From assembly GCA_030840525.1 (NCBI GenBank), contig JAVEEI010000004.1, forward strand, positions 1 to 37,269: 37,269 nucleotides of DNA, written 5' to 3'. This document shows positions 7,784 to 23,016 of this stretch, one piece after another. The position numbers and the translations under genes are program-made. The DNA comes from Frankiaceae bacterium (lineage in GTDB: Bacteria; Actinomycetota; Actinomycetes; JAFAQI01). Each line of letters opens with the position of its first letter. Position 1 is the first letter of the stretch. The notes below the pieces were generated by a model. It was not told the DNA's origin. It worked only from the letters and a program-made list of their open reading frames with translations, and made no database searches.

Positions 7784-8488
7784 TTAGCCGAGCGGGTGCC
7801 GGTGCGACGCACCCGGCAGCAGGTCGAACGGCGAGCCGTCGCCGAACTGCACGGTGGCCTCGCCGTCCTGAATCGACAGCAGCGAGAAGACGTTGCCGAA
7901 GTCGGTCCGCAGGCTGCTCGTCGGCGCGACGACGTTCTTGTACGACGTGGTCCGCAGGGACTTGCCGTTGCTGTAGCCGACCACGAACGTCGCGCTCTTG
8001 GTGCCGTCGACGCTGACCAGCCCGATCCAGACCGGCGCGTACGCCGCGGCGACCGGGGGGGTCGTGCCGCCGGTCGGGCCGCTGACCGGCACCGTCGGCG
8101 TCGTCGGGGCGGTCGCCGACTGCGCGGGTGCGGCCGGCTTCGGCGGCGGCGGGGCGTACAGCGGCTTGAACGGGTCGGTGCCGCCGGCGTCGGTGACGAT
8201 CTTGGGCAGCGTCACGGCGGCGGTGCTGCCGGGCGCCCCCGTCGCGGTCTTGGCCGCGTGGTGGTGCTGCGGGACCGTGAACGAGTCCGCGCTCGGCGAC
8301 GAGCCGCCGCCCTTCAGCAGGAAGAACGCGACGACGACGAGCACGAGCACGCCGGCGGCGGCACCCGCCATCATCAGCTTGCGTCGGTTGTCGCTGCCAC
8401 CGTCTTCGTCGTCGAAGCCCGCGGGCAGGATCGGGGCGGGCGGCTCAGCCACGGCCGTGCCCGGCCCCGAGTAAGTCTGCTGAGACAT
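7784..8488 (-). CDS. PilP-like type IV pilus inner-membrane complex protein
   Basis: Last gene of the pilMNO operon. The 234-residue product has a disordered cytosolic N-terminus, one transmembrane helix at about residues 37-60 (LMMAGAAAGVLVLVVVAFFL), a Pro/Ala/Thr-rich linker (about 95-145), and a C-terminal beta domain with VWIGLVSVDGTKSATFVVGY and VFSLLSIQDGEATVQFGDGS. Position and layout (anchor, linker, beta domain) are those of PilP, which in diderms is a lipoprotein that contacts the secretin PilQ. There is no lipobox and no secretin gene here, so this is a monoderm equivalent anchored by a helix. I infer a role in the PilM-N-O alignment complex. Ends at the 7728-7767 hairpin. Confidence 0.72.
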   Translation of the reverse strand: MSQQTYSGPGTAVAEPPAPILPAGFDDEDGGSDNRRKLMMAGAAAGVLVLVVVAFFLLKGGGSSPSADSFTVPQHHHAAKTATGAPGSTAAVTLPKIVTDAGGTDPFKPLYAPPPPKPAAPAQSATAPTTPTVPVSGPTGGTTPPVAAAYAPVWIGLVSVDGTKSATFVVGYSNGKSLRTTSYKNVVAPTSSLRTDFGNVFSLLSIQDGEATVQFGDGSPFDLLPGASHRHPLG

Positions 8489-16002: not shown

Positions 16003-16437
16003 TCACCCGCTGAGCGAGTCGCCGGCGGCGCCGCTGTTGGTCACCGAGCAGTCGCTCGCGCCTTTGGGCTGCAAGCCGCCGCCCTGGCTGTCGTAGAACC
16101 ACGAGTTTGGCGACTGCGCGTTCTGCCCCTTGAGGCAGTACGCGTCGCTGCTGAGGTGGACGATCGTGATCGTGTCGCCGGGGCTCAGGTGGTTGAAGCT
16201 GATGCCGGTCGCGACCATCTGCGCGAACGTGCCGTAGGTCTGCCCGCCGGTGTAGAAGCCCTCCTCCTGCGCGGCGACGCTGCGCAGGTCGGACTTCACC
16301 CCGGTGTCGCGCGCGTTCACACGCTGGCTGAGGAACAGCGGGATGGCGATCGCGGCGAGGATGCCAATGATGATCATGACGACGAGCAGCTCGATGAGGG
16401 TGAACCCCTCCTCGGCGTTGCGAAACCGCTTCGACAC
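16003..16437 (-). CDS. Type IV pilin-like protein (minor pilin)
   Basis: A pilin of 144 residues from GTG 16437 (leader VSKRFRNAEEG, then FTLIELLVVMIIIGILAAIA with Glu+5). The N-terminal helix closely matches the two major pilins, but the globular part is different (YGTFAQMVATGISFNHLSPG, with two cysteines about 45 residues apart). I prefer GTG 16437 to a TTG at 16488, because the TTG would give an 28-residue leader and begins right against the pilA1 terminator. No strong ribosome-binding site is seen for either. It begins the minor-pilin group 54 nt past the pilA1 terminator, so it may depend on readthrough. Confidence 0.82.
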   Translation of the reverse strand: MSKRFRNAEEGFTLIELLVVMIIIGILAAIAIPLFLSQRVNARDTGVKSDLRSVAAQEEGFYTGGQTYGTFAQMVATGISFNHLSPGDTITIVHLSSDAYCLKGQNAQSPNSWFYDSQGGGLQPKGASDCSVTNSGAAGDSLSG

Positions 16438-16490
16438 GAGGTAGTTGTCGTAACGGCGAGCGCCACTCTTGAACGCGCGGAGACACAAAA

Positions 16491-16542: not shown

Positions 16543-16974
16543 CTAGAAGGACGCCGGGCAAGCCGTCGTCGCGGCCGGCTGGAGGCCGCCCTGGCTCGAC
16601 ACGTAGACCCAGTTGTGGGTCGCCTTGGTGTCGGAGCCGACGAGGCAGAACGCGTCCGAGGTCGCGTTCAGCGCCAGGGTGAAGCTGTTGTTCGACGAGA
16701 CGCGCACCGACGACGTGCCGACGGTGACCGGGGCGCCGGCCGAGGCCTGCGTGATGGTCGCCGGGTACGCCTGGGTGTCGGTGTACTGGCTCTCCATCTC
16801 GTTCGCCAGCGTGCGCAGGTCGGACTTGATGGAGGCGTCGACCGCGTTCTTCCGCTGGTTCAGGAACAGCGGGATCGCGATCGCGGCCAGAATGCCGATG
16901 ATGATCATGACGACGAGGAGCTCGATGAGGGTGAAGCCCTCCTCCTCGCGCATCTTGTGCAGACGAGCGAGCAT
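16543..16974 (-). CDS. pilA: Major type IV pilin PilA1
   Basis: A 143-residue major pilin, the subunit of the pilus fibre. Leader MLARLHKMREEEG (13 residues), then FTLIELLVVMIIIGILAAIAIPLFLNQRK with Glu+5; a small beta domain ends in a disulfide loop (Cys in DAFCLVG and ACPASF). GGAAGGA lies 5 nt before the ATG. Its leader RNA of about 180 nt contains a GEMM-I type riboswitch, and a TCAAG/GCCGA promoter precedes that. It is near-identical to pilA2 through the first two thirds and differs at a handful of surface positions near the C-terminus (ALNATS/TLNATT, LVGS/LKGT, HNW/HAW). Confidence 0.95.
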   Translation of the reverse strand: MLARLHKMREEEGFTLIELLVVMIIIGILAAIAIPLFLNQRKNAVDASIKSDLRTLANEMESQYTDTQAYPATITQASAGAPVTVGTSSVRVSSNNSFTLALNATSDAFCLVGSDTKATHNWVYVSSQGGLQPAATTACPASF

Positions 16975-17047
16975 TGCGGTCCTTCCGGGACGGTGTGGCG
17001 AGCCACGCTGTGTGAAACCCTGCGCGACCCCTCCGTACGGAGGTGCC

Positions 17048-17135
17048 GGCCCAGGCAGCCGGGCTGACTCACGGGCCCTGCGAGTCCCCTAGCTTTGCGG
17101 CCCCGCCTCGCAGCGGGTGTGCCCTTCACTCGGCC
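17048..17135 (-). ncRNA. Probable GEMM-I (cyclic-di-GMP-I) riboswitch upstream of pilA1
   Basis: Read on the minus strand, the landmarks of the class I aptamer occur in order. GGCC (17135-17132) and GGGCACACC (17124-17116) open the fold. A stem CCCGCT/GGCGGG is capped by the GNRA loop GCGA (17111-17108). Then come GCAAAGCTA (17098-17090), a second hairpin with GACTC/GAGTC (17086-17066), and CCCGGCTGCC closing P1 against GGGCA and GGCC. It sits just downstream of the predicted promoter and ends 73 nt before pilA1. A CCTCCGTACGGAGG palindrome (17043-17030) may belong to the expression platform. Known family: GEMM-I, binding c-di-GMP (variants bind cGAMP). Ligand and on/off sense are not shown. 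Confidence 0.85.
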
Positions 17136-17160
17136 ATGCGGCTCATTGATGACAAGGCAA

Positions 17161-17189
17161 CTGTCGGCCCTACCTGCGGATTACTTGAG
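17161..17189 (-). promoter_or_regulatory. Sigma-28-like promoter of pilA1
   Basis: CTCAAG (17189-17184), 15 nt, GCCGACAG (17168-17161) on the minus strand. The predicted transcription start (near 17154) lies about 20 nt before the riboswitch aptamer, so the whole aptamer would be in the leader RNA. Confidence 0.78.
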
Positions 17190-17220: not shown

Positions 17221-17255
17221 CCAAAGGCCGGGACCTTACCGGTCCCGGCCTTTGG
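17221..17255 (-). terminator. Hairpin terminator after pilA2
   Basis: CCAAAGGCCGGGACC (17221-17235) pairs with GGTCCCGGCCTTTGG (17241-17255), a perfect 15-bp stem with a 5-nt loop, 18 nt past the pilA2 stop. Its GGCCGGGACC core is the same as in the pilA1 terminator, so the duplication probably included it. It insulates the pilA1 unit from pilA2 transcription. Confidence 0.88.
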
Positions 17256-17273: not shown

Positions 17274-17705
17274 TTAGAACGACGCCGGGCAAGCGGTCGT
17301 CGCGGCCGGCTGGAGGCCGCCCTGGCTCGACACGTAGACCCACGCGTGCGTGGCCTTGGTGTCGGTGCCCTTGAGGCAGAACGCGTCGGTCGTGGCGTTC
17401 AGCGTGAGGGTGAAGCTGTTGTTCGCGGAGACGCGGACCGACGAGGTGCCGACGGTGACCGGGGCGCCGGCCGAGGCCTGCGTGATGGTCGCCGGGTACG
17501 CCTGGGTGTCGGTGTACTGGCTCTCCATCTCGTTCGCCAGCGTGCGCAGGTCGGACTTGATGGACGCGTCGACCGCGTTCTTCCGCTGGTTCAGGAACAG
17601 CGGGATCGCGATCGCGGCCAGAATACCGATGATGATCATGACGACGAGGAGCTCGATGAGGGTGAAGCCCTCCTCCTCGCGCATCTTGTGCAGACGAGCG
17701 AGCAT
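17274..17705 (-). CDS. pilA: Major type IV pilin PilA2
   Basis: The tandem twin of the downstream pilin: 143 residues, same 13-residue leader MLARLHKMREEEG and the same helix FTLIELLVVMIIIGILAAIA. The two genes differ at only a few bases over the first 240 or so, then diverge in the last third (for example DAFCLKGTDTKATHAW here against DAFCLVGSDTKATHNW). A ribosome-binding site GGAAGGA precedes the ATG. It has its own TCAAG/GCCGA promoter and terminator but no riboswitch in its leader of about 50 nt. This suggests a constitutive member of a pair whose other member is ligand-controlled. Confidence 0.94.
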   Translation of the reverse strand: MLARLHKMREEEGFTLIELLVVMIIIGILAAIAIPLFLNQRKNAVDASIKSDLRTLANEMESQYTDTQAYPATITQASAGAPVTVGTSSVRVSANNSFTLTLNATTDAFCLKGTDTKATHAWVYVSSQGGLQPAATTACPASF

Positions 17706-17762
17706 TTCGGGTCCTTCCGAAGCAGTTGATGTGAGCCAGGGCCCGGCTCGATGACAACAAGG

Positions 17763-17791
17763 GTTTCGGCCGCAACAGGCATTGCCTTGAG
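17763..17791 (-). promoter_or_regulatory. Sigma-28-like promoter of pilA2
   Basis: CTCAAG (17791-17786), 15 nt, GCCGAAAC (17770-17763) on the minus strand. Predicted start near 17756, giving a leader of about 51 nt with no aptamer landmarks. Confidence 0.75.
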
Positions 17792-18457: not shown

Positions 18458-19693
18458 TCAGCTCTGCTTGGCGACCAGGTCGTAGATGTGGAAGATCGGC
18501 AGGTAGAGGCAGATGATCATCGAGCCGACGATGCCGCCGAGGACCGCGATCATCAGCGGCTCGATCATGGCGGTCAGCGCCTCGGTCGTCGCCTCGACCT
18601 CCTGGTCGTAGAACTCGGAGATCTTGTGCAGCATCGAGTCGAGCGCGCCGGTGTCCTCGCCGACGGCCATCATCTGCACGACCATCGGCGGGAAGACGTC
18701 GTGGTTCTTCAGCGGGCCGGCCAGCGACTCACCGCTGCGGACGCTGTCCTGCACGTCGTGCACCGCATTGGCGATGACCACGTTGCCGCTCGTGTCGGCG
18801 ACGATCTCGAGCGCCTGAAGGATCGGTACGCCGGAGTGCATCATCGTGCCGAGGTTGCGGGTGAACCGCGACAGCGCGATCTTCTGGAACAGGCTGCCGA
18901 AGATCGGCATCTTCAGCTTCATCGGGTCGACGACGTTGCGCACCTGCGGGGTGTGCTTGTACTTCTGCCACGCGATGAAGCCCACGATCGAGCCGACCAC
19001 GCCGATCGGGAACATGAACTTGAACGCGTGCGAGATGTTGACCAGCATCTGCGTCGGCGCGGGGAGCTTGCCGCCGAGCTGCTTGTAGAGGTTCGCGAAC
19101 GTCGGTACGACGAACAGCAGCATGCCGGTGACGGCCATCATCGCGATGATGAAGACGACGACGGGGTACGTCATCGCGGCCTTGACCTTGCCGCGCAGCT
19201 TGACCTCGGACTCGTAGTTCGCCGCGATCTGCAGCAGCACGGAGTCGAGGAAGCCGCCGACCTCGCCGGCCTTGCACATGTTGACCATGAGCGGCGGGAA
19301 CACCCGCGGGTGCTTGCCCATCGACGCCGACAGCGAGTTGCCGGACTCGACGTCGTTGCGGACCTCGCCGAGAATCCTTGCCAGCTCTGAGTTCTCGGTC
19401 TGCTCGGTCAGGATCGTCAGCGCGCGCAGCAGCGACAGGCCGGAGTTGATCATCGTCGCGAACTGGCGCGCGAGGATGGCCAGGTCCTTGAGCTTCACCT
19501 TCTTGCCGAAGCCCGGGATCTTGATCTCCTTCTTCAAGCCCGCGTTCGACTCGGAGATGCTCACCGGGGCATAGCCCATCGACTTCAGCCGCTGGACGAC
19601 CGCGGTCTGCGACTCACCCTCGAGGGTGCCGCTGACCAGCTTGCCGGCCTTGTCCCGGACCGAGTACTGGAACGTCGTAGTCGCTGTTGCCAT
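18458..19693 (-). CDS. pilC: Type IV pilus platform protein PilC
   Basis: PilC (GspF family) is the inner-membrane platform on which PilB and PilT act. The 411-residue length is typical. Features are an N-terminal ATTTFQYSVRDKAGKLVSG strand region, then two GspF domains (about 72-195 and 275-400), each with the family start: LARQFATMINSGLSLLRAL and FTRNLGTMMHSGVPILQALE. Three hydrophobic segments are seen (about 175-195, 220-240, 375-398). ATG 19693 has GAGG upstream and lies 13 bp after pilT, so both are driven by the pilT promoter. It ends at a strong hairpin. Confidence 0.95.
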   Translation of the reverse strand: MATATTTFQYSVRDKAGKLVSGTLEGESQTAVVQRLKSMGYAPVSISESNAGLKKEIKIPGFGKKVKLKDLAILARQFATMINSGLSLLRALTILTEQTENSELARILGEVRNDVESGNSLSASMGKHPRVFPPLMVNMCKAGEVGGFLDSVLLQIAANYESEVKLRGKVKAAMTYPVVVFIIAMMAVTGMLLFVVPTFANLYKQLGGKLPAPTQMLVNISHAFKFMFPIGVVGSIVGFIAWQKYKHTPQVRNVVDPMKLKMPIFGSLFQKIALSRFTRNLGTMMHSGVPILQALEIVADTSGNVVIANAVHDVQDSVRSGESLAGPLKNHDVFPPMVVQMMAVGEDTGALDSMLHKISEFYDQEVEATTEALTAMIEPLMIAVLGGIVGSMIICLYLPIFHIYDLVAKQS

Positions 19694-19706: not shown

Positions 19707-21110
19707 TCAGGCCCGGCCGCAAAGCCGGTTGAAGTCCTCGACGTGGTGGCACTTCTCGAGGCCGGTGTCGTACGCGATCTTTCCGGCCTTGACGAGCTCC
19801 GAGAGGTGCTGGTCCATGGTGTGCATGCCATGCCGGCCACCGGCCTGCAGAGCGCTGTAGATCTGGTGCGTCTTGCCTTCGCGAATCAGGTTGCGGATAG
19901 CGGGTGTCGCGACGAGAACCTCGGTCGCGACGACCCGGCCCTGACCGTCGACCGACTTCGCCAGGGTCTGGCAGACGACGCCCTGGAGCGCGCCGGCGAG
20001 CTGGACCCGCACCTGCTGCTGCTGGTGCGGCGGGAACACGTCGATGACACGGTCGATCGTCTGCGCCGCGTCCTGCGTGTGCAGGGTCGCGAAGACGAGG
20101 TGGCCGGTCTCGGCCGCGGTGAGCGCGACGGAGATCGTCTCGAGGTCACGCATCTCGCCGACGAGGATGATGTCGGGGTCCTGGCGCAGCACGTGCTTCA
20201 GCGCGTTCTGGAACGACCAGGTGTCCTCGCCGACCTCGCGCTGGTTGACCAGGCACGACTTGTGCCGGTGCAGGAACTCGATCGGGTCCTCGACCGTCAT
20301 GATGTGGTCGCGGCGCTGCCGGTTGGCGAGGTCGACCAGCGACGCGAGCGTCGTCGACTTACCCGAACCGGTCGGGCCGGTGACGAGGACGAACCCGCGC
20401 GGCAGCATCGCGAAGTTGCTGATGGACGGCGGGATGCCGAGGTCTTCGAGCGCCTTGATTTCGTAGGGAATCAAACGGAAAGCGGCGCCGAGTGCGTCCC
20501 GCTGGCGGTAAAGGTTGACGCGGAAACGGGCCTTGCCGGGGACGGCGTACGCGAAGTCGAGCTCGAGCTCCTCCTCGAACTTCTCCCGCTGCCGTTGGGT
20601 GAGGATCGCGTACATCATCCGCTGGATGACCGGCGGCGTGAGGATCGGCCGGTCCTCGAGCTGGCCGAGCGAGCCGTGCAGCCGGATGGTCGGCCGGGCG
20701 CCCGCGGTGATGTGCAGGTCGGACGCCCCCTTGTCGAGCACCTCGACGAGCAGCTCGGTGAGCAGGCTCGCCTCGAACGCGCTGTCCTCCTCGATCGCCG
20801 ACCGGCCCACGCTCTCGTGCGCGTCGTGGCCGCCGGAGGCCGGCGAGGAAGGCGCCTGGCTCTGCGCCGGCGGCTCGGCCGGCACATGGGGTGCCGGCAT
20901 GGCAGCCGCGGGGTCGATGCCGTACGGCGCGGGCGGCGCCGGCACGGTGGGAGCCGGCGCGGACACCGGCGGAACGGTAGCGGCGGCCGACGTGAACGGG
21001 GACGCGCTCTGCTCGGGCACGGAGGCCGGCGCATGGGCCGCGGGCGGTGGCACCGAAGCGGCCGTAGCGGCCGTCTCCGGGCTCCAGTCGGGGTCGAGCG
21101 GGCTCACCAC
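19707..21110 (-). CDS. pilT: Type IV pilus retraction ATPase PilT with Pro/Ala-rich N-terminal extension
   Basis: PilT is the hexameric ATPase that disassembles and retracts pili. The 467-residue protein has Walker A GPTGSGKSTTLASL, the Asp box HIMTVEDPIEFLH, Walker B DIILVGEMRDLET, a His box ATLHTQDAAQTIDR, and the PilT signature AIRNLIREGKTHQI. The core begins near LLTELLVEVLDKGASDLHI; before it are about 110 Ala/Pro/Ser-rich residues not found in standard PilT (about 350 aa). GTG 21110 is chosen: AAAGGTGG lies upstream, and the other candidate (GTG 21188) falls within the predicted promoter. PilC follows after 13 bp. Confidence 0.93.
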   Translation of the reverse strand: MVSPLDPDWSPETAATAASVPPPAAHAPASVPEQSASPFTSAAATVPPVSAPAPTVPAPPAPYGIDPAAAMPAPHVPAEPPAQSQAPSSPASGGHDAHESVGRSAIEEDSAFEASLLTELLVEVLDKGASDLHITAGARPTIRLHGSLGQLEDRPILTPPVIQRMMYAILTQRQREKFEEELELDFAYAVPGKARFRVNLYRQRDALGAAFRLIPYEIKALEDLGIPPSISNFAMLPRGFVLVTGPTGSGKSTTLASLVDLANRQRRDHIMTVEDPIEFLHRHKSCLVNQREVGEDTWSFQNALKHVLRQDPDIILVGEMRDLETISVALTAAETGHLVFATLHTQDAAQTIDRVIDVFPPHQQQQVRVQLAGALQGVVCQTLAKSVDGQGRVVATEVLVATPAIRNLIREGKTHQIYSALQAGGRHGMHTMDQHLSELVKAGKIAYDTGLEKCHHVEDFNRLCGRA

Positions 21111-21152
21111 GTCGCGTCCACCTTTACGGCAAGGGGTCAAGTCGGTCTCGGT

Positions 21153-21198
21153 AGGGACGTACGGTCCCTCCTGCGGTGCATCGGTCACGTACGTCCCT
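21153..21198. promoter_or_regulatory. GGGAC/GTCCC half-sites around the pilT transcription start
   Basis: AGGGACGTACG (21153-21163) and CGTACGTCCCT (21188-21198) form an 11-bp perfect inverted repeat centred near 21175, on the predicted pilT -10/start region. The inner AGGGAC-N5-GTCCCT (21153-21169) is a second palindrome that would form a hairpin at the very 5' end of the mRNA. Candidate operator; the half-sites resemble those at the HTH gene. Confidence 0.55.
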
Positions 21199-21351: not shown

Positions 21352-23016
21352 TCAGACGACGACGCGGAGGATCTCTTCGAGGGTGGTGACGCCGTCGAGC
21401 ACCTTGGCCATGCCGTCGTCGCGCAGCGTCTTCATGCCCTGCTCGCGCGCGACCTGGCCGATGACCGCCGCCGACGCCCGTTCGACCGCGAGCCGCTCGA
21501 TCTCCTCGCTGACCGGCATCACCTCGTGCAGCGCGAGCCGGCCCTTGTAGCCGGTCTTCGCGCACGCGGAGCAGCCGACGGCGCGGTACAGCGTCGGCAG
21601 CGGCTCCCCCTCGGCCCACGGGAACCTGGCCTGCCGCAACGTCTCCGCCTCGGGCACGTAGGCCTCGCGGCACTTCGCGCACAGCCGCCGGGCGAGCCGC
21701 TGGGCGAGGATGCAGTCGAGCGCGGAGCCGACGAGGAACGGCTCGATGCCCATCTCCACCAGCCGCGTGATCGCGCTCGGCGCGTCGTTGGTGTGCAGCG
21801 TCGACAGCACCAGGTGACCGGTGAGCGCGGCCTCGATCGCGATCTGCGCGGTCTCGTGGTCGCGGACCTCGCCGATGAGGACGACGTCGGGGTCGGACCG
21901 CAGGATCGAGCGCAGCGCGCTGGCGAACGACAGGCCCGCCTTCGTATTGGTCTGCACCTGGTTGATGCCCGGGATCCGGTACTCGACCGGGTCCTCGACG
22001 GTGATGACGTTGATCTCCGGCTTGGAGACGATGTTCAGCGTCGCGTAAAGAGTCGTTGACTTACCCGAGCCGGTCGGGCCGGTGACCAGGATCATCCCGT
22101 ACGGCTTGGTGAAACTGACCGCGTAGCGCTCGTAGTTGTCGTCGCGGAAGCCGAGGTCCGACAGCTTGAGCATCGCGGTGCTGTTGTCCAGCACCCGCAT
22201 GACGACCTTCTCGCCCCACACCGTCGGCAGCGTCGCGACCCGGAGGTCGATCTTCTTCTGGTTGACCGTGACCGACAGCCGGCCGTCCTGCGGGATCCGG
22301 CGCTCGGCGATGTTGATGTCAGACATGATCTTCAGCCGGCTGATGACGCCGGACTGGATGTTCTTCGGCGAGCGCATGATCTCGTGCAGCACGCCGTCGA
22401 TCCGGAAGCGCACCCGCAGGTCGCGCTCGGTCGGCTCGATGTGGATGTCGGACGCGCGGTCCTGGATCGCCTGGGTGATCAGCAGATTGACGAACTTGAC
22501 GATCGGCGCGTCTTCGACGACGTCCTTGAGCGAGCTGAGGTCGTCGTCCTCGTCGGTGTTGTCGAGCGCCATCGTGAGGTCGTCGAGGTCGCCGTCGGCG
22601 CGGTGCACGCGGTTGAACGCGGCGGTCACGTCGGCCTTGGTCGCGACGACCGGCTTCACCTCGGCGCCGGTCAGCGAGCGGATGTCGTCGATCGCGAACA
22701 CGTTCGCGGGGTCCGACATCGCGACGAGCAGGCGGCCTTCGTCGTAACCGATGGGCAGCGCGTTGTAGCGGCGGCACACCGTCGCCGGCACGGACGCGAC
22801 CGCGGCGCCGTCGAGCGGGTAGTCGGAGAGGTCGACGAACTTCAGCCCGATCTGCTGCGCGAGCGCGGCGACGAGCTGGCTCTCGGTGAGGACGCCACGC
22901 TCGACGAGCACGCGACCGAGCGCGCGGCCGGCCCGCTGGTGCTCCTCGTACGCGGCCGACAGCTGCTCCTGCGTGACCAGCCCGCCCTCGAGCAGGATGT
23001 CACCGAGCTGCTTCAC
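21352..23016 (-). CDS. pilB: Type IV pilus extension ATPase PilB with two MshEN motifs
   Basis: PilB powers pilus assembly. The 554-residue protein opens with two MshEN-type c-di-GMP-binding motifs: QLGDILLEGGLVTQEQLSAA (3-22) and ALGRVLVERGVLTESQLVAA (32-51). The C-terminal ATPase has Walker A GPTGSGKSTTLYATLN, Asp box VITVEDPVEYRIPG, Walker B DVVLIGEVRDHETAQ, His box STLHTNDAPSAITR, and a zinc-binding tetracysteine (LCAKC and GCSACAKTGYKGR). GTG 23016 is 3 bp past the small upstream gene, within the roadblock operon. It ends just before the hairpin element. Known MshEN ATPases are c-di-GMP receptors; binding here is inferred from the motifs. Confidence 0.95.
   Translation of the reverse strand: MKQLGDILLEGGLVTQEQLSAAYEEHQRAGRALGRVLVERGVLTESQLVAALAQQIGLKFVDLSDYPLDGAAVASVPATVCRRYNALPIGYDEGRLLVAMSDPANVFAIDDIRSLTGAEVKPVVATKADVTAAFNRVHRADGDLDDLTMALDNTDEDDDLSSLKDVVEDAPIVKFVNLLITQAIQDRASDIHIEPTERDLRVRFRIDGVLHEIMRSPKNIQSGVISRLKIMSDINIAERRIPQDGRLSVTVNQKKIDLRVATLPTVWGEKVVMRVLDNSTAMLKLSDLGFRDDNYERYAVSFTKPYGMILVTGPTGSGKSTTLYATLNIVSKPEINVITVEDPVEYRIPGINQVQTNTKAGLSFASALRSILRSDPDVVLIGEVRDHETAQIAIEAALTGHLVLSTLHTNDAPSAITRLVEMGIEPFLVGSALDCILAQRLARRLCAKCREAYVPEAETLRQARFPWAEGEPLPTLYRAVGCSACAKTGYKGRLALHEVMPVSEEIERLAVERASAAVIGQVAREQGMKTLRDDGMAKVLDGVTTLEEILRVVV

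Follow-up and report, generated by a model that had tools for sequence, protein, structure and literature searches.

Work on c-di-GMP signalling in actinobacteria has so far centred on BldD and on WhiG/RsiG, WhiG being a transcription factor known to be turned off by c-di-GMP. In Rubrobacter, type IV pilus genes are transcribed from flagellar/WhiG-class promoters, with RsiG as an anti-sigma factor that depends on c-di-GMP, and the zoospore pili of Actinoplanes are driven by WhiG-like sigma factors with RsiG absent; the main text of the same study does not mention riboswitches (0 occurrences) (PMC8325347). At the RNA level, a c-di-GMP-II riboswitch (Cdi-2-4) controls the major type IV pilin gene pilA1 of C. 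difficile, which it turns ON by antitermination (PMC6366702).

The Frankiaceae locus analysed here, on a stretch of 37,269 nucleotides (the window), resembles both systems in part. As with Cdi-2-4, a predicted c-di-GMP riboswitch lies immediately upstream of the gene for a major type IV pilin in a monoderm (PMC6366702), but the aptamer class is unrelated. Moreover, Cdi-2-4 works through transcription termination and is switched ON by c-di-GMP, whereas the leader in the window lacks a U-tract terminator. As in Rubrobacter, WhiG-type promoters precede pilus genes and both WhiG and RsiG are encoded (PMC8325347); unlike there, a c-di-GMP aptamer is found on the same transcripts and RsiG has the twin-motif form.

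The reading that we favour, with a probability of roughly 0.8, is that the 5' leader of pilA1 contains a c-di-GMP-I riboswitch from a lineage conserved before the major pilin gene in many actinobacterial families, transcribed from a WhiG-type promoter and with a probable double c-di-GMP input. The sequence-only reading of this locus had considered direct control of a major pilin notable in a monoderm. Such control is supported as a putative function, but its novelty does not hold given the class II riboswitch of C. difficile pilA1 (PMC6366702), and the surprise is lowered because riboswitch control of a monoderm major pilin was already established there. For an actinobacterial pilA riboswitch branch, we found no report in the literature searched, which was largely without subscription papers and preprints, and in the same literature the conserved coupling of such a riboswitch to a WhiG-type promoter seems to be undescribed. 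The finding holds up and has a broader reach than first thought, and its surprise is the conserved coupling of promoter and riboswitch, with a function that is putative.

Twin pilin genes in a type IV pilus cluster

The pilin genes are part of a pilus cluster with the following features:

16003..16488, minus strand: third pilin, in the cluster
16543..16974, minus strand: pilA1, major-pilin-like, 143 aa (Pfam N_methyl, 33.2 bits)
16980..16986, minus strand: Shine-Dalgarno GGAAGGA of pilA1 (sequence)
17223..17253, minus strand: hairpin AAAGGCCGGGACC-GGTAA-GGTCCCGGCCTTT 3' of pilA2, likely terminator separating the twins (sequence)
17274..17705, minus strand: pilA2, twin pilin, aptamer-free, 96% identical to pilA1
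18458..19693, minus strand: PilC-like protein, in the cluster
19707..21188, minus strand: second T2SSE ATPase, in the cluster
21352..23016, minus strand: PilB-like extension ATPase with MshEN domain (T2SSE 477 bits; MshEN 80.4 bits vs. a cut-off of 23.1)

The start of pilA1 is at 16974 (-), while pilA2 has a leader of 65 nt and its own CTCAAG-N15-GCCGA promoter. Each twin pilin gene is followed by a long hairpin. The one behind pilA1 was scored as a terminator in a U-tract scan, which did not pick up the hairpin at 17223-17253; the position of the latter, 3' of pilA2 and between the twins, suggests that pilA1 is probably transcribed from a promoter of its own.

MshEN domains are known to bind c-di-GMP in MshE. 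The MshEN domain of the PilB-like ATPase may represent a third c-di-GMP input; in both of its LG-x2-L-[LV] repeats the motif arginine is substituted (QLG, ALG).

Identity and anatomy of the aptamer

A cmscan search of the entire window with 4227 Rfam families at curated gathering thresholds identified a c-di-GMP-I riboswitch (RF01051) at 17133-17051 (-), with 55.2 bits vs. a cut-off of 35 and an E-value of 2.6e-8. The match is untruncated and fully covers model positions 1-87. No other Rfam family reached its threshold anywhere in the window, including the c-di-GMP-II riboswitch model, and the same search found RF01051 in 0 of 14 named control genomes. The covariance search thus bears out the GEMM-I/c-di-GMP-I aptamer proposed from the sequence, including the places of its named pieces, i.e. 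GGGCACACC, a stem capped by the GNRA loop GCGA, GCAAAGCTA, a second hairpin, and CCCGGCTGCC. The limits originally drawn (17048-17135) correspond to the aptamer plus the P1 stem, which is not part of the Rfam model. Likewise, the pilA2 leader is without an Rfam match at threshold, so that at this threshold only one of the two twin pilins has an aptamer, as the sequence-only reading had stated. The parts of the aptamer are:

17051..17133, minus strand: c-di-GMP-I aptamer core, RF01051 (cmscan, 55.2 bits)
17132..17135, minus strand: P1 stem, 5' strand GGCC (sequence)
17048..17051, minus strand: P1 stem, 3' strand GGCC (sequence)
17102..17117, minus strand: P2 hairpin CCCGCU-GCGA-GGCGGG, GNRA loop at 17111-17108 (cmscan alignment)
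17057..17094, minus strand: P3 hairpin (cmscan alignment)
17123, minus strand: G, equivalent of ligand-contact G20 (cmscan alignment)
17096, minus strand: A, equivalent of intercalating A47 (cmscan alignment)
17055, minus strand: C, equivalent of ligand-pairing C92 (cmscan alignment)

The aptamer resembles the c-di-GMP-I family (GEMM-I, RF01051) in sequence, P2, P3, the GNRA loop, the ligand-contact positions, and a score well over the cut-off. In the cmscan alignment, P2 with its GNRA loop, the CGCAAAG joint, and P3 are all present and non-standard pairs are unmarked. P1 is found in 27/27 pilA leaders, with the pair types GGCC/GGCC, GGCC/GGTC, GACC/GGTC, and AGAG/CTCT. The aptamer departs from the family in reading GGCACACC where the consensus has GGCAAACC, and in being enclosed by an outer stem that riboswitch-free pilin leaders share. 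It also lacks the canonical tetraloop receptor, as the corresponding columns of P3 (CUAA) are deleted in the cmscan alignment, but this feature is variable and non-defining in RF01051. By score and anatomy, the aptamer is an ordinary member of the c-di-GMP-I family, predicted to bind its ligand.

Some members of this family sense 3',3'-cGAMP, as is known from Geobacter; an A at position 20 is typical of this type (GEMM-Ib), and a G of the c-di-GMP type. We take 17123, 17096, and 17055 to be positions G20, A47, and C92 in the numbering of the Vc2 aptamer. The model alignment places a G at 17123, and the GEMM-Ib hallmark A20 is absent. Together with the A at 17096 and the C at 17055, this leads us to expect the c-di-GMP subtype and not the cGAMP one. 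That the aptamer binds another cyclic dinucleotide, namely cGAMP, is therefore improbable despite the existence of such sensors in the family, also in view of the 22 GGDEF domains encoded in the genome.

A conserved promoter and outer stem

The regions flanking the aptamer contain further elements, some of which recur in the pilA2 leader:

17164..17189, minus strand: pilA1 promoter, WhiG/FliA-type, CTCAAG-N15-GCCGA (sequence; pattern scan)
17766..17791, minus strand: pilA2 promoter, WhiG/FliA-type, CTCAAG-N15-GCCGA (pattern scan)
17138..17144, minus strand: outer stem P0, 5' strand GAGCCGC (covarying stem, 27 leaders)
17000..17006, minus strand: outer stem P0, 3' strand GUGGCUC (covarying stem, 27 leaders)
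17030..17043, minus strand: H1 hairpin CCUCC-GUAC-GGAGG, directly 3' of P1 (minimum-energy fold)
17733..17749, minus strand: pilA2 leader hairpin GAGCC-GGGCCCU-GGCUC, a P0-like bracket without aptamer (sequence)

The order of a sigma-28-like promoter, the aptamer, and pilA1 proposed from the sequence stands (promoter at 17189-17164, gene start at 16974), but the promoter type is better read as WhiG, which brings in a second possible c-di-GMP input beyond the sequence-only reading. All 27 distinct pilA leaders have, upstream, a -35 element of the CTCAAG/CTAAAG type and a -10 element containing CGA, compared to a mean of 0.18 in shuffled upstream regions, and this CTCAAG/CTAAAG-N-CGA pattern fits WhiG/FliA sigma factors. 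In 18/27 leaders, the distance from the end of the -10 element to P0 is 16 nt. Genome-wide, the pattern has 27 sites, hardly more than the 19 of the reversed control. Despite this weak genome-wide pattern, the presence of the promoter in 27/27 leaders at a near-fixed distance indicates that promoter and riboswitch form one conserved unit.

P0 encloses the aptamer, the H1 hairpin, and the linker. Over the 27 leaders, 170 of 189 cells of the stem are standard pairs, compared to 58-82 with one side slid by 1-3 nt; the anchors were partly picked by complementarity, a bias that the slid control shares. The stem also covaries, with 10 compensatory cells vs. 3.9 after shuffling (1 of 1000 shuffles reaches 10). 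A GAGCC...GGCTC bracket also occurs in a pilin leader without RF01051 of a relative (G004). Together with the bracket of the pilA2 leader, this places the aptamer in the loop of a stem that can also occur on its own, so that P0 need not belong to the switch.

These properties of P0 also fit a somewhat different function, in which the whole leader including the outer stem would mainly shield the 5' end of the mRNA, and the aptamer would modulate decay rather than translation. In 18 of the 27 leaders, P0 starts some 16 nt downstream of the -10 element, and it brackets aptamer-free leaders (pilA2 of the window, relatives) as well. We consider this putative role a tentative alternative with clearly less than even odds.

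Candidate output step

The best candidate for the moving part of the switch is a helix between the aptamer tail and the linker that would compete with P1, as suggested by folding and by comparison of the 27 leaders:

17052..17055, minus strand: aptamer tail CCUG, predicted partner of CAGG when P1 is unformed (folding)
17019..17022, minus strand: linker CAGG, candidate P1 competitor, pairs with 17055-17052 (folding; 27-leader test)

In the window, the predicted probability of this pairing is 0.88 in the free RNA vs. 0 with P1 forced. The complement is CCUG/CAGG in the window and CCUCG/CGAGG in many relatives. Across the leaders, a 4-mer complement is present in 13/27 compared to 6.8 after shuffling (11 of 2000 shuffles), and a 5-mer complement in 8/27 compared to 2.2 (3 of 2000 shuffles), in a test that ignores relatedness and with the pairing failing in about half of the 27 leaders.

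Other candidate expression platforms were rejected. A hairpin at the Shine-Dalgarno sequence (GUCC-CGGAA-GGAC, 16991-16979) is at chance level, as 58/200 shuffled sets reach it, and pairing of an SD-mimic GGGACC with the anti-SD was a by-eye fit in few leaders and is absent from the group of the window. Intrinsic termination in the leader found no support either, as there is no U-tract terminator between the aptamer and the start codon and the sole one found lies after pilA1. In constrained folding with ViennaRNA, the mean exposure of the Shine-Dalgarno sequence was 0.44 in the bound and 0.44 in the free state, with 3/27 leaders more open and 2/27 less, and the leader in the window is not unusually stable (z 0.65). 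We infer that the output lies at translation or mRNA stability and not at intrinsic termination.

WhiG, RsiG, and c-di-GMP signalling in the genome

The genome encodes a single sigma factor over the FliA/WhiG family cut-off, and the best solved relative of this protein is S. venezuelae WhiG (6pfj_A, E 6.8e-120). RsiG, located by its motif pattern and then confirmed against solved structures, is a 181-aa protein (best solved relative 6pfj_T, E 2.3e-28) with both E-x3-S-x2-R-x3-Q-x3-D motifs, i.e. the twin-motif form. WhiG was found in 25 of the 27 pilA-riboswitch genomes, and so was RsiG, which is present in all 22 of those with a completeness of 90% or more and a contamination of 5% or less. 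As the published background of 134/673 actinobacteria with RsiG (PMC8325347) stems from another search and sample, and our counts include related genomes, these figures describe co-occurrence and are no proof of linkage.

Alternatively, the aptamer may bind c-di-GMP while the promoter is served by a FliA-like or RsiG-independent sigma factor, so that the riboswitch would be the sole c-di-GMP input. There is precedent in the zoospore pili of Actinoplanes, which use WhiG-like sigma factors without RsiG (PMC8325347), and the promoter pattern alone is weak genome-wide. However, the close match of the only FliA/WhiG-family sigma factor to S. venezuelae WhiG and the presence of a twin-motif RsiG make a sole RNA-level input unlikely.

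A second RsiG-like protein, in which one c-di-GMP motif (EDRVSYWRRIVQARLD) is intact, is encoded at G000:C71:8320-8859 (+) (L072:1321-1860), and a CTCAAG-N15-GCCGA box at 8270-8295 of the same contig ends 25 nt upstream of its gene. Many of the searched relatives also show a second, weaker match to RsiG, whereas one genome with two copies has been reported (PMC8325347).

Distribution across actinobacteria

Among 395 genomes sampled from the class, 42 contain RF01051, representing 27 of 138 genera, as do 9/13 genomes of the order. A major pilin gene (MLARxRK...GFTLIELLVV) lies downstream of 30 of the 57 hits examined, and at least 12/57 precede a CAP-domain protein, often with a CTCAAG-type promoter. 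Before pilA, the aptamer occurs in at least 12 families (27 distinct pilA leaders). A DNA pattern for the pilA-type aptamer retrieved the same arrangement in named Frankiaceae, Frankiales, Nanopelagicales, Micrococcales, and other actinobacterial records, although some MAG titles among these are doubtful, e.g. Bifidobacterium breve.

This distribution bears on the question of whether the element could be a decayed aptamer or a chance resemblance to one, with no role in regulation. No expression platform was demonstrated among the Shine-Dalgarno hairpin, Shine-Dalgarno exposure, terminator, and fold stability examined. Yet the high score and low E-value, the same downstream gene in all these families, and the fixed promoter distance render such an origin highly improbable.

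Several further c-di-GMP-I riboswitches precede other genes. A second RF01051 copy in the genome (G000:C123:27467-27558 (+), L074:3468-3559; 42.7 bits) is located before a secreted CAP-domain protein (66.6 bits). In three loci (L027, L030, L070), the riboswitch precedes a gene for a small secreted protein with a signal-peptidase-like gene behind it, an order that recalls TasA/SipW matrix cassettes. In another three (L031, L051, L068), it precedes secreted-looking polysaccharide-active enzymes (cellulase-like, pectate-lyase-like, sulfatase). In L010 (G002:C51), it lies approximately 350 nt upstream of a PAS-domain protein gene, possibly with a short reading frame in between. Finally, acidobacterial records (L096, L140, L158) have the pilA-type aptamer pattern ahead of PilM-like genes.

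Proposed mechanism and implications

We propose that the pilA1 transcript begins at the WhiG-type promoter, in which case c-di-GMP probably acts twice. As a first input, c-di-GMP-armed RsiG would sequester WhiG; as a second, the aptamer on the pilA1 mRNA would read c-di-GMP. Ligand binding would stabilise P1 (GGCC/GGCC) and thereby exclude the tail-linker helix (CCUG with CAGG), while the outer stem P0 may hold the aptamer module at the 5' end. As pilA2 has the promoter and the outer stem without the aptamer, only one of the two near-identical pilins would receive the RNA-level input. Whether a conserved actinobacterial circuit reads a single messenger at successive steps in the expression of one gene, by RsiG/WhiG for the start of pilA, by the class I riboswitch for the transcript, and possibly by MshEN of PilB, is in our view an even bet.

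Our analysis extends the c-di-GMP-I riboswitches by a widespread actinobacterial branch whose single dominant target is the major pilin. Should both layers be responsive to c-di-GMP, the locus would provide a natural example of a messenger that gates promoter and transcript of the same gene, and if the signs of promoter and riboswitch are opposite, the cell would make pilin only between a lower and an upper level of c-di-GMP. The twin pilin without an aptamer offers a built-in control, and if the aptamer indeed acts on one twin only, c-di-GMP would set the composition of the pilus.
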